A stretch of DNA of 64,000 nucleotides from Burkholderiaceae bacterium (GTDB lineage: Bacteria > Pseudomonadota > Gammaproteobacteria > Burkholderiales > Burkholderiaceae_C), in NCBI GenBank assembly GCA_004299095.1, contig SCQQ01000086.1, positions 1-64,000 of the forward strand, written 5' to 3'. A program made the translations under genes and the position numbers. This document shows positions 18,142 through 21,290 of the stretch, piece after piece. Within the stretch, counting starts at the first letter, position 1. Every line of letters starts with the position of its first letter. A model generated the notes under the pieces. The model searched no databases. It saw only the letters and a program-made list of their open reading frames with translations, and had not been told where the DNA came from.

Positions 18142-19287
18142 CTACAGCCGGTGAATGCGGTCGCCGGTGATGAAGCCGCAGGCGTCCCACTCGGCTTGCG
18201 CGGCGACGCCGATGACCTTGAACAACTCGCCCATTTCGTGCTCGTTCACCAGCTTCAGCGCGCGCGAGCGCTCCGCGATGGAGGCGTTTTGCATCAGCTC
18301 CGACAGGCCGCAATTCAGCAGGAAACGCCCTTGCGAGGTGTAGCCCAGCACCGTGAGTCCGGCGTCCTGCGCGGCCAGCGCGATGCCGGTGAAATCGACG
18401 TGCGCCGTGATGTCCTTCTGCCCTACGTCGGCCAGCGGGTTGTCATCCATGCGGTGCGCGTGGTGGCACACCAGCGTTCCGCTGGCGCGCTGCGCGTGGT
18501 AGTACTCGGCTTCGGGAAAGCCGTAGTCGATGAAAAACGCCGCGCCGTGCTGCAGGCGCTCCGCAATGGTGCGCATGAAGGCTTCAGCCTGCGGGTGGAT
18601 TTCGGTGACGTAGTCGTCGCCGCCCTCGATCCCGATCGGCGGGCGCAGCGCGGTCGGGCGATCGGCCCAGAAAAAAAGCGGTTCGGCGGCTTGCAGGCTC
18701 ACGCCGCGTTCGAACCAGGCGCCATCGCGGCGCGCCAGCAGCTTGACGGGCATGGCATCCAGCACTTCGTTGCCGACGATCACCCCGCTCATGGCGTCGG
18801 GCAGGGCCTCGGCCCAGCGCACGCGATCGCCGAAAGGCGCGAGGCGCTGCTGCTGCAGGCCGCGCAGCGCGCCCGAAACGTCGACGATGGTGTAGCGCCG
18901 CACCGCCGTTTCGGACTGTTCAGCGGCGCGCAGAAGCTGCTCGGCCAGGGCACCGGAACCGGCGCCGAATTCCCAGATCTCGTCGGTCTGCGTGGCCTGC
19001 AGTGCTTCGCTCACTTGGCGCGCCAGCGCCGCGCCAAAGAGCGACGAGAGTTCGGGCGCCGTCACGAAGTCGCTGCCGTCTTCGGCGAACCAGCCAAACT
19101 TGGGCGAGCGGCGCGCGTAATAGCCCAGGCCCGGCTGGTACAGCGCCAAGTGCATGAAGCGGTCGAACGGCAGCCAGCCGCCGGCGTCGCCGATGGCGCG
19201 GGCGATGTGCTGGGTGAGTTCGCTGGCGGCGGATGAATCGGCAGCGGGAATGGACGGGACGGGCACGCGCCGATTGTCCCCGATCAC
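18142..19287 (-). CDS. SAM-dependent methyltransferase, MidA/NDUFAF7-like
   Basis: A 381-residue protein with the conserved N-terminal [22 protein letters not shown] and [16 protein letters not shown]-binding [14 protein letters not shown], and later [15 protein letters not shown]. In eukaryotes NDUFAF7 methylates an arginine of complex I; bacterial counterparts are largely untested. The start codon is GTG at 19287; a second GTG at 19266 is an alternative. It faces away from metX across a 200-base gap that holds the metX promoter and leader. Confidence 0.85.
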
Positions 19288-19357: not shown

Positions 19358-19363
19358 TATACT
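19358..19363 (+). promoter_or_regulatory. candidate -10 box for metX leader RNA
   Basis: TATACT lies 11 bases before the start of the riboswitch P1 helix. A start site near 19370 would place the aptamer at the very 5' end of the transcript. The -35 region is poor: TTGCGG at 19339 is only 13 bases away. Confidence 0.45.
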
Positions 19364-19373
19364 GGACCGCGAA

Positions 19374-19446
19374 CAGCGCCGATTTGCCTCTGCTTGCGGG
19401 CGCTGCGGAACGAGTTGAAACGTTCCGGCATAAATACGGCTAAATC
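19374..19446 (+). promoter_or_regulatory. SAM-II-type riboswitch upstream of metX
   Basis: P1 is a perfect 7-bp helix, CAGCGCC (19374-19380) with GGCGCTG (19399-19405). Its loop is GATTTGCCTCTGCTTGCG, which starts with GAUUUG and has GCUUGC near its end, both SAM-II hallmarks. The pseudoknot helix P2 can form between AUUUG (19382-19386) and UAAAU (19431-19435), followed after three bases by the conserved GCUAAA (19439-19444). An additional hairpin (CGGAACG/CGTTCCG, 19406-19427) is inserted between P1 and P2. SAM-II riboswitches repress methionine genes when S-adenosylmethionine is abundant. The alignment was made by eye, from memory of the consensus; a covariance search would decide. Confidence 0.78.
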
Positions 19447-19472
19447 GAGACGCTGGCAACCTGGTTTCGATT
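19443..19472 (+). promoter_or_regulatory. candidate antiterminator helix of the metX leader
   Basis: AATCGAGAC (19443-19451) can pair with GTTTCGATT (19464-19472), nine base pairs with one G-U. Its left strand overlaps the last bases of the GCUAAA aptamer element and its right strand takes G19464 from the terminator stem, so aptamer folding and antitermination would compete. Confidence 0.6.
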
Positions 19473-19492
19473 CGACGAGGCCGGGTTTTTTT
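19458..19492 (+). terminator. intrinsic terminator directly before metX
   Basis: AACCTGG (19458-19464) pairs fully with CCGGGTT (19481-19487, one U-G), and seven T residues run from 19486 to 19492. The last T is six bases from the metX ATG. Such a hairpin before a start codon is expected for transcriptional attenuation by the upstream aptamer. Confidence 0.75.
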
Positions 19493-19498
19493 ATTGCC

Positions 19499-20641
19499 AT
19501 GTCCCTGATCGCCACGCCGCACACCCAGCATTTCGACGCGCCGCTCGCGCTGCGAAGCGGTGCCGCGATCGCGCACTACGACCTGGTGTATGAAACCTAC
19601 GGCACGCTCAATGCCGGGCGCAGCAACGCGGTGCTGATTTGCCACGCGCTCAACGCCTCGCACCACGTGGCCGGGGTGTATGCCGACGATCCGGGCAACG
19701 AAGGCTGGTGGAGCAACATGGTGGGCCCGGGCAAGCCGGTCGATACCAACCGCTTTTTCGTGGTCGGCATCAACAACCTGGGCTCCTGCTTCGGCTCCAC
19801 CGGGCCGATGGATGCCAATCCCGAAACCGGCGAAATTTACGGCGCGAACTTTCCGGTGCTGACGGTCGAAGATTGGGTGGCCGCGCAAGCGCTCTTGATC
19901 GAGACGCTGGGCATCACGCAACTCGCAGCCGTCATGGGCGGCAGCCTGGGCGGCATGCAGGCGCTTTCCTGGACGCTGCAATACCCCGACCGCGTGTGCC
20001 ATGCCGTGGTGGTGGCCAGCGCACCGAACCTGTCGGCCGAGAACATCGCTTTCAACGAAGTGGCACGGCGCGCCATCAGCACCGATCCCGATTTTCACGG
20101 TGGCGATTTCTACCGCTTTGGCGTGGTGCCGGCGCGCGGCTTGCGCATCGCCCGCATGATCGCCCACATCACGTACTTGAGCGACGACGTGATGAACCAG
20201 AAGTTCGGCCGCGCGCTGCGCGATGCCGTGGCGCAAAACCCGGACGGCTACAAGTTCAGCACGCAGGACGTGGAGTTCCAGATCGAGAGCTATCTGCGCC
20301 ACCAGGGCGACAAGTTCAGCACCTATTTCGACGCCAACACGTATTTGCTGATCACGCGCGCGCTCGACTACTTCGATCCGGCTCGGGTCCACGGTGGCGA
20401 TCTGACGAAAACGCTGGCGCCCACGCAGGCCAAATTCCTGCTGGCGAGCTTCAGCACCGACTGGCGCTTTCCGCCGCCGCGCTCGCGCGAAATCGTGAAG
20501 GCCCTGCTGGAAAACCGGCGCGACGTGAGCTACGCGGAAATCGACGCGCCGCACGGCCACGACGCGTTCCTGTTGACCGACGAGCGCTACCTGAACGTGG
20601 TGCGCAGCTATTTCGACGGCATTGAAAGGGGGCTGGCATGA
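19499..20641 (+). CDS. metX: homoserine O-acyltransferase MetX
   Basis: A 380-residue alpha/beta-hydrolase-fold enzyme that acylates homoserine (acetyl or succinyl donor) as the first dedicated step to methionine. Conserved blocks are [49 protein letters not shown], the nucleophile elbow [12 protein letters not shown], and the C-terminal FSTDWRFPP and [11 protein letters not shown] with the catalytic Asp and His. Proteobacterial metX enzymes with metW next to them often use succinyl-CoA, so donor specificity is open. No normal SD is present because the terminator occupies the region. The stop overlaps an ATG (ATGA) leading only to a 21-codon ORF; metW starts 58 bases downstream. Confidence 0.97.
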
Positions 20642-20699
20642 GCGCGCCGGGTCGTTTCCAAGCGCGCATCCCGCGGTGCGCGGCGCGGAGGGGGTTCCA

Positions 20700-21290
20700 G
20701 TGAGCGATCCCTTCCTCGTCGAGACCATTGCCGCGCTGGTACCGCAAGGCGCGCACGTGCTCGATCTGGGCTGCGGCGACGGCGCGCTGCTGGAGCTGCT
20801 GCAGCGCACCAAGGGTTGCAATGGCTACGGCATCGAAATCGACGATGCCAACGTGCTGGCCTGCGTGCGGCGCGGCGTGAACGTGCTGCAGCTCAACCTG
20901 CATCAAGGCCTGGCCGCGTTCCAGGACCAGAGCTTCGACGTGGTGCTGCAGATCGACACGCTGCAGCACCTGCGCAACGCCGAAGCCATGCTGCTGGAGA
21001 CGGCGCGCGTGGGCCGAACGGGCATCATCGCCTTCCCCAACTTTGCCCACTGGCCGAATCGGCTGAGCGTGGCGCGCGGCCACATGCCGGTCACGCGCCG
21101 CATGCCGTACGCGTGGTACGACACGCCGAACATTCGCGTGGGCACCTTCAAGGACTTCGCGGCGCTGGCGCGCAAGCACAACTTGCGCGTCCTCGATGCC
21201 TTCGGCCTGCAGGACGGCCGGATGGTGCGGCAGTGGCCGAACTTGCGCGCCAGCACAGCGGTGTTCAAGCTGGCGCGACAGGCCAGTTGA
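20700..21290 (+). CDS. metW: methionine biosynthesis protein MetW
   Basis: A 196-residue methyltransferase-fold protein that always accompanies metX in many proteobacteria. Motif I is HVLDLGCGDGALLELL, followed by GIEIDDANVLACVRRGVNV, SFDVVLQIDTLQHLRN, and the MetW-type NFAHWPNRLSVARGHMPVTRRMPYAWYDTPNIR. MetW associates with MetX and is needed for full activity in some organisms. The GTG at 20700 is preferred because GGAGGGGG lies just before it; the upstream in-frame ATG at 20622 would overlap metX. It shares the metX riboswitch. Confidence 0.95.
   Translation: MSDPFLVETIAALVPQGAHVLDLGCGDGALLELLQRTKGCNGYGIEIDDANVLACVRRGVNVLQLNLHQGLAAFQDQSFDVVLQIDTLQHLRNAEAMLLETARVGRTGIIAFPNFAHWPNRLSVARGHMPVTRRMPYAWYDTPNIRVGTFKDFAALARKHNLRVLDAFGLQDGRMVRQWPNLRASTAVFKLARQAS

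Follow-up and report, generated by a model that had tools for sequence, protein, structure and literature searches.

A probable SAM-II riboswitch with an optional P3 hairpin and a transcription attenuator in the metX-metW leader of a Comamonadaceae-like bacterium

Introduction

In SAM-II riboswitches (SAM_alpha, RF00521; PMC1273637; crystal structure 2QWY), loop L1 lies in the major groove of helix P2b, L3 touches P1 through A-minor interactions of its adenines, and helix P2a, which holds the C16-G50 pair, closes last (PMC12434664, PMC6061858). In alpha- and beta-proteobacteria, these elements are mostly tied to terminators, through mechanisms that were unproven when the association was reported (PMC2258182), and 44 examples of tandem SAM-II switches are known (PMC9481103). 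The first SAM-II paper allows "optional sequence insertions" in its consensus drawings (PMC1273637). SAM-V (Huang and Lilley 2018) has a P3 stem-loop 3' of P1, a helix that is stated to be absent from SAM-II (PMC6061858).

Another RNA has been described ahead of the same kind of genes. Leyn et al. (2014, PMC4239095) report a "metXZ" element before metXW or metZ in beta-proteobacteria, with a pseudoknot and a terminator, in 10 of 11 Comamonadaceae; there the element is called novel and has no ligand, and SAM_alpha is stated to occur only in Rhizobiales and Rhodobacterales. Bordetella is already in the first SAM-II alignment (PMC1273637), and papers of 2007 (PMC2258182) and 2009 name beta-proteobacteria among the carriers of SAM-II, so that the identification proposed below is partly implicit in the literature.

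Results

A SAM-II-like core in the metX-metW leader

The locus belongs to a Comamonadaceae-like bacterium and lies in a stretch of 64,000 nt (the window), where it forms the 5' leader of metX-metW; coordinates refer to the plus strand of the window unless stated otherwise. A sequence-only reading had proposed a SAM-II-type riboswitch with an extra hairpin and a complete attenuator at this site, and all the pieces that it named were found on base-by-base reading of 19360-19500. P1 pairs CAGCGCC (19374-19380) with GGCGCTG (19399-19405) over 7 bp and closes the L1 loop as in SAM-II, and the compensatory P1 changes looked for in the metX leaders of relatives are present (AGCGCC/GGCGCT, GTCGCC/GGCGAC, and ATCGCC/GGCGAT). 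The loop opens with GATTTG (19381-19386), conserved in the family, whose T19383-T19385 would be, by analogy with the SAM-II and SAM-V structure papers, the counterparts of U10-U12, the uridines of the SAM-II triplex strand. Within the same loop, GCTTGC occupies 19392-19397, and its TTGC (19394-19397), which we take to be U20-C23 of the SAM-II crystal numbering in a way consistent with the structure papers, provides the 5' strand of P2b. It pairs with 19439-19440 and 19442-19443 inside GCTAAA (19439-19444), the P2b 3' strand; these letters (UUGC with GC-U-AA) are invariant in the family, an invariance that gives no covariation signal. T19441 would by analogy occupy the position of the uridine that faces the SAM adenine (U44), with A19442-A19444 following. 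The A-rich L3 of SAM-II is present beside P1 as ATAAAT (19430-19435). The SAM-contacting positions named for SAM-V and SAM-II are kept, except that the A19/A18 position is a C. The sequences of P1, L1, and L3 vary little, so that much of the fold rests on homology.

As for SAM-II, the genes downstream are methionine/SAM genes: metX, of the homoserine O-succinyltransferase type (19499-20641; NF047916, 634 bits, cut-off 560), and metW (20622-21290; TIGR02081, 234.6 bits, cut-off 189.5), listed with a TTG start downstream of which its true start may lie. Upstream, the likely -10 element is TATACT (19358-19363), proposed from its sequence and its placement in the family, a good -10 hexamer being found just 5' of P1 in 107 of 146 family leaders with a median gap of 7 nt; no good -35 was seen ahead of it, and transcription is expected to start immediately 5' of P1. 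The metX leader has its intergenic region in common with a divergent neighbour (minus strand, 18142-19287), which by eye resembles a SAM-dependent methyltransferase of the MidA/NDUFAF7 type.

Rfam misses the element and a family-built model finds it

With Rfam release 15, nothing in the window rose above threshold and no SAM family matched a local 501-base stretch at E<=10; a whole-genome search with RF00521 and RF01726 left the place of the element unmatched. The leader thus falls short of the gathering cut-off of RF00521 (36 bits), which is a detection threshold and not a structural feature, and of that of RF01726 (44 bits); the case for its membership in SAM-II is consequently made on homology and structure and not on score. 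The sequence-only reading had proposed a covariance search with RF00521 over 19360-19500 and had tied its claim to the outcome, and this null result is why the family was rebuilt from relatives. The metX leaders of relatives from the same genus and order show the same core and a terminator. Model R1, a covariance model of 28 leaders from which the target was left out, matches 19371-19446 with 59.2 bits (in a genome of 3.14 Mb, E 3.9e-12), the next-best match in the genome reaching 23.6 bits, i.e. 35.6 bits less. Genomes with an R1 match number 302 of 399 in the order, 126 of 142 in the family, and 26 of 29 in the genus; the named relatives are Comamonadaceae such as Limnohabitans, Curvibacter, Acidovorax, and Variovorax.

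The Rfam model itself recognizes many of these relatives. At E<=0.001, RF00521 matches leaders in 80 of the 142 family genomes (one per genus), 37 of them above cut-off, and in none of 14 control genomes; its family matches fall almost always at the R1 coordinates. On those metX leaders without an insert that were scanned, no other SAM family scores as well as RF00521 (23-45 bits, some above 36), and a hairpin-free leader of the same genus with nearly the same core (G016) scores 30.3 bits. The covariance search therefore failed for the target and succeeded for insert-free relatives with nearly the same core: the Rfam miss goes with the inserted hairpin, and hairpin-bearing leaders are those that drop out. 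Together, homologous leaders, covariation, and gene context bear out the assignment to SAM-II that had been made from the letters. A relaxed DNA pattern also matches coding sequence by chance, and such loci were excluded (L009, L010, L013, L019-L023, L025, L029, and L030).

Two further families come near these leaders. The SAM-II long-loops family, reportedly described from Bacteroidetes and marine sequences, resembles the element in having a SAM-II-like core with larger loops. It differs in giving no usable match here (RF01726, Weinberg 2010), an insert-free tandem relative (L260) reaching only 21 bits. RF02424, the "Burkholderia sRNA" Bp2_Cand287_SIPHT, matches metX leaders weakly but repeatedly on the opposite strand, for example L147, L153, and L164 (16-37 bits against a cut-off of 70; best 37.4 bits, E 1.8e-5); it is probably the same riboswitch locus recovered by another screen, and the family may have been read on the wrong strand.

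The pseudoknot is formed by P2b and P2a

The pairing of ATTTG in the loop with the downstream TAAAT (19431-19435), which the sequence-only reading had taken for the pseudoknot, is possible on paper and did not survive comparison with the family and with the SAM-II structure. Both strands are nearly invariant, the fifth "pair" has no pairing preference, and the metK-type class described below breaks the second. Since SAM-II has L1 in the P2b groove and the L3 adenines on P1, ATTTG and TAAAT would instead correspond by analogy to the L1 triplex strand and to the L3 A-minor strand, with A-minor contacts to P1 expected for the latter. The true pseudoknot is P2b (TTGC with GC(U)AA) together with P2a (CTC, 19388-19390, with GAG, 19447-19449). 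The letters alone had thus led to the right element, although one of its helices had been assigned wrongly.

P2a is only 3 bp in the target, and its support comes from the family. In 130 distinct leaders of the metX type, L1 and the nucleotides that follow GCTAAA are more complementary than under permutation at gaps of 3 nt (5') and 2-3 nt (3'), with a z of 8.1 (native score 4.97 against 3.56 +/- 0.18 for 2000 permutations, the highest of which reaches 4.18), shared ancestry staying in the comparison. This spacing is that of C16-G50 in the numbering of the 52-nt SAM-II crystal RNA. The excess is weaker at offsets 4/3 and 4/4, which are the same helix one pair further out, and with free offsets no excess was seen (native 8.12, swapped 8.01), so that the result depends on geometry. 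The offset was fixed after some examples had been seen by eye; the crystal spacing serves as an outside check, and the signal lies at one register.

The inserted hairpin is an optional P3

The extra 7-bp hairpin that had been proposed between P1 and P2 is there: CGGAACG (19406-19412) pairs with CGTTCCG (19421-19427) around an 8-nt loop, between the P1 3' strand and L3. Most family leaders lack an insert, and many have related or unrelated hairpins at that site. Among 17 alignable inserts, 98% of cells pair, five of six pairs change on both sides, and the covariation score is reached by none of 500 shuffles. On a metX tree, the insert is found in 23 of 86 leaders, and at least eight gains or losses are needed, three of them forced by well-supported branches. 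The hairpin is therefore an optional "P3" that was gained or lost repeatedly. Within the genus of the target, only the target genome and G305 have an insert; because their sequences differ, the target's was probably gained separately.

A proposed attenuator precedes metX

All parts of the attenuator claimed ahead of metX-metW are present. Its seven-T run (19486-19492) is as had been described, whereas the hairpin before it is longer than the 7 bp first assigned: it has 12 bp (19458-19469/19476-19487) with three G.U pairs and -17.1 kcal/mol, the intrinsic terminator as a whole spanning 19458-19492. Terminators with a strong hairpin and an uninterrupted T-run were found in 152 of 162 family leaders. 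The 9-bp helix said to overlap the end of GCTAAA was also read, as the antiterminator AATCGAGAC (19443-19451) with GTTTCGATT (19464-19472), with one G.U pair; the two final A's of GCTAAA are the first bases of its 5' strand. In a swap test on 91 non-redundant leaders, with shared ancestry not removed, complementarity of GCTAAA and the spacer to the terminator 5' arm and loop exceeds that of swapped partners (-9.94 versus -8.77 kcal/mol, p 7e-4). Pairing takes in two or all three of the A's of GCTAAA in 52 of the 91 native cases, versus 41% of swapped ones; the target leader stands at rank fraction 0.01.

Nucleotides 19439-19449, which supply the 3' strands of P2b and P2a, run into the 5' strand of the antiterminator (19443-19451), with GAG of P2a lying in both. 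The aptamer with SAM bound and the antiterminator would accordingly be mutually exclusive, leading to termination at high SAM. This strand in common is in line with the earlier proposal that the SAM-bound aptamer prevents the antiterminator and lets the terminator form, the direction of the switch being what we infer from the overlap.

A second SAM-II-like element precedes metK

In the same genome, outside the window, a SAM-II-like element lies just ahead of metK (G000:C99:21437-21518, L066), and it is at this place that the genome's best RF00521 match (15.7 bits) and the second-best match of R1 (23.6 bits) coincide. The metK type is also present in genomes of the same genus and family. It has the loop GAGTTA, as against GATTTG at metX, and compensatory P1 changes; P2a is mostly 4-5 bp in the same geometry (42 sequences). 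No terminator was seen after these elements, which keep a conserved tail, GCGTTCGCC / GCTAAAGCGTTCGCC, and GGAG. A model of the metK type matches 191 of 300 order genomes at E<=1e-5, with metX-type leaders among its weaker matches, and at least 16 of the 29 loci read precede metK. RF00521 gives 16-25 bits or nothing on metK-type elements, and a literature search found no report of a SAM-II-like element in metK leaders, so that this element, widespread in Burkholderiales, is apparently undescribed. In four metK leaders (L127, L130, L255, and L271), a hairpin after GCTAAA, GCGTTCGCCA...TGGCAACGC, has CTCC inside it, a possible partner for the GGAG that precedes metK, and GTTC doubles as a P2a strand; this suggests a translational switch.

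Tandem and variant elements also occur among the relatives. Tandem SAM-II elements were noted at L074, L167, L149/L129, L011, L260, and L272, often the first with a terminator and the second without, and L011 carries three. Several leaders (L074, L282-L285, and L288-L290) are followed by the gene of a small conserved protein of about 95-102 aa starting MYDC, an N-terminal fragment of which had no Pfam match. A third loop type, CGCCGGATTTGATCGACATCTTGCCGGGGCGAC...GGCTAAAG, appears in L129/L149, L011, L012, L014, and L260; the base after TTGC is changed to C together with that before GCTAAA to G, in keeping with a base pair predicted by the SAM-II mutual-information analysis of 2007 (PMC2258182).

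Discussion

We consider, with a probability of about 0.9, that the metX-metW leader is a transcriptional SAM-OFF riboswitch of SAM-II type, and the evidence supports its placement as a variant of SAM-II that combines an optional P3 with a transcription attenuator. P1, the L1 uridines, P2b with GCUAAA, the A-rich L3, P2a at the crystal offset, a -10 element just 5', the terminator, and metX-metW downstream are all features of SAM-II (RF00521). What departs from it is the 7-bp hairpin between P1 and L3, the miss by the Rfam model, and the short P2a. The hairpin (19406-19427) is likened to SAM-V (PMC6061858), where P3 follows P1 on its 3' side and precedes the A-rich strand, at exactly this site, and the pocket nucleotides are the same. 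However, SAM-V is translational, with a P3 of 3 bp, a Shine-Dalgarno in a 2-bp P2a, and no terminator, whereas the present leader has a P3 of 7 bp, a terminator, no Shine-Dalgarno at P2a, and SAM-II leaders without P3 as its nearest relatives. Filing it under SAM-V was rejected on account of the terminator and of this closest homology, and a separate new class on account of the RF00521 matches to insert-free relatives.

In the mechanism that we propose, SAM would dock at high concentration in the L1.P2b triplex and fix the pseudoknot (P2b TTGC/GCTAA and P2a CTC/GAG), which would bury 19439-19449 and block the antiterminator (19443-19451/19464-19472); the 12-bp terminator would then form and metX-metW would remain untranscribed. 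At low SAM, P2a would open and GAGAC would pair with the terminator 5' arm and loop, allowing read-through. The inserted P3 would be peripheral and stack on or beside the end of P1 with the pocket intact; it is most naturally read as a tolerated, perhaps stabilising helix. Such SAM-OFF transcription attenuation agrees with the terminator-linked SAM-II of alpha- and beta-proteobacteria.

The same aptamer might instead act wholly or partly on translation, the hairpin close to the metX start excluding the ribosome and termination being secondary. The T-run ends at 19492, 6 nt before the ATG at 19499, no separate Shine-Dalgarno was seen between them, and the spacing is equally tight in many leaders of the genus. 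We nevertheless regard this as unlikely, given the near-universal pairing of a strong hairpin with an uninterrupted T-run in the family (152/162), the prevailing link of SAM-II to terminators in these proteobacteria (PMC2258182), and the metK sister elements, where translational-looking leaders are without a terminator and keep GGAG; a translation block could still contribute in the target leader. Also proposed for the state without SAM was the minimum-energy structure of the 131-nt leader, in which 19374-19388 (P1 5' strand and loop) pairs with GGCTAAATCGAGACGCTG (about 19438-19455). The leader folds 2.3 sd better than shuffles, but in a structure that lacks the pseudoknot and does not represent the functional state; energy models take account of neither pseudoknots nor SAM. 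This helix needs GCTAAATC, most family leaders read GCTAAAGA or other letters, and a pairing so poorly kept is very improbable as a functional state; it was rejected.

In all likelihood, this leader class and the metXZ element that Leyn et al. described in 2014 are one and the same, as judged from the published description: both are metXW/metZ leaders of beta-proteobacteria including Comamonadaceae, with a pseudoknot and a terminator/antiterminator, although metXZ as published has pairings other than those proposed here and no ligand (PMC4239095). That metXZ could be an independent class sensing another signal draws on the identity of genes and taxa (10/11 Comamonadaceae), on the pseudoknot and terminator common to both, and on the restriction of SAM_alpha to Rhizobiales and Rhodobacterales in that study (PMC4239095). 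We hold it to be most improbable: RF00521 scores above cut-off on metX leaders in 37 of 142 genomes (one per genus), beta-proteobacteria were in the SAM-II record from the Bordetella sequence onwards, and P2a of the metX leaders has SAM-II geometry. A literature search found no other paper naming both metXZ and SAM_alpha. Scarcely credible is a plain attenuator without ligand, in which the conserved bases would be a protein or sRNA site, since conservation falls on the SAM-contacting nucleotides and on a covarying P1 and P2a of SAM-II geometry.

Returning to the SAM-II reading, it is an even bet that Burkholderiales genomes harbour two SAM-II subtypes each: a terminating GAUUUG type at metX, which would be metXZ and would have acquired a SAM-V-like P3 several times over, and a GAGUUA type at metK that has not been reported and seems to act on translation. 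In the latter, G takes the place of the pocket uridine U10, perhaps with another affinity or ligand preference. What gives the finding its value is the link from metXZ to SAM-II, together with the covarying P3 and the metK sister class. An RNA regulator published in 2014 as a new class, with no signal assigned to it, gains a likely ligand and a structure, and one optional hairpin suffices to hide a real SAM-II from the standard search, as 126 of 142 family genomes were matched by the local model and 37 of 142 at the Rfam cut-off. The metK leaders represent a pocket change in a well-understood aptamer, and a P3 within SAM-II is relevant to the question of whether SAM-II and SAM-V should be counted as a single family in which some parts are optional.
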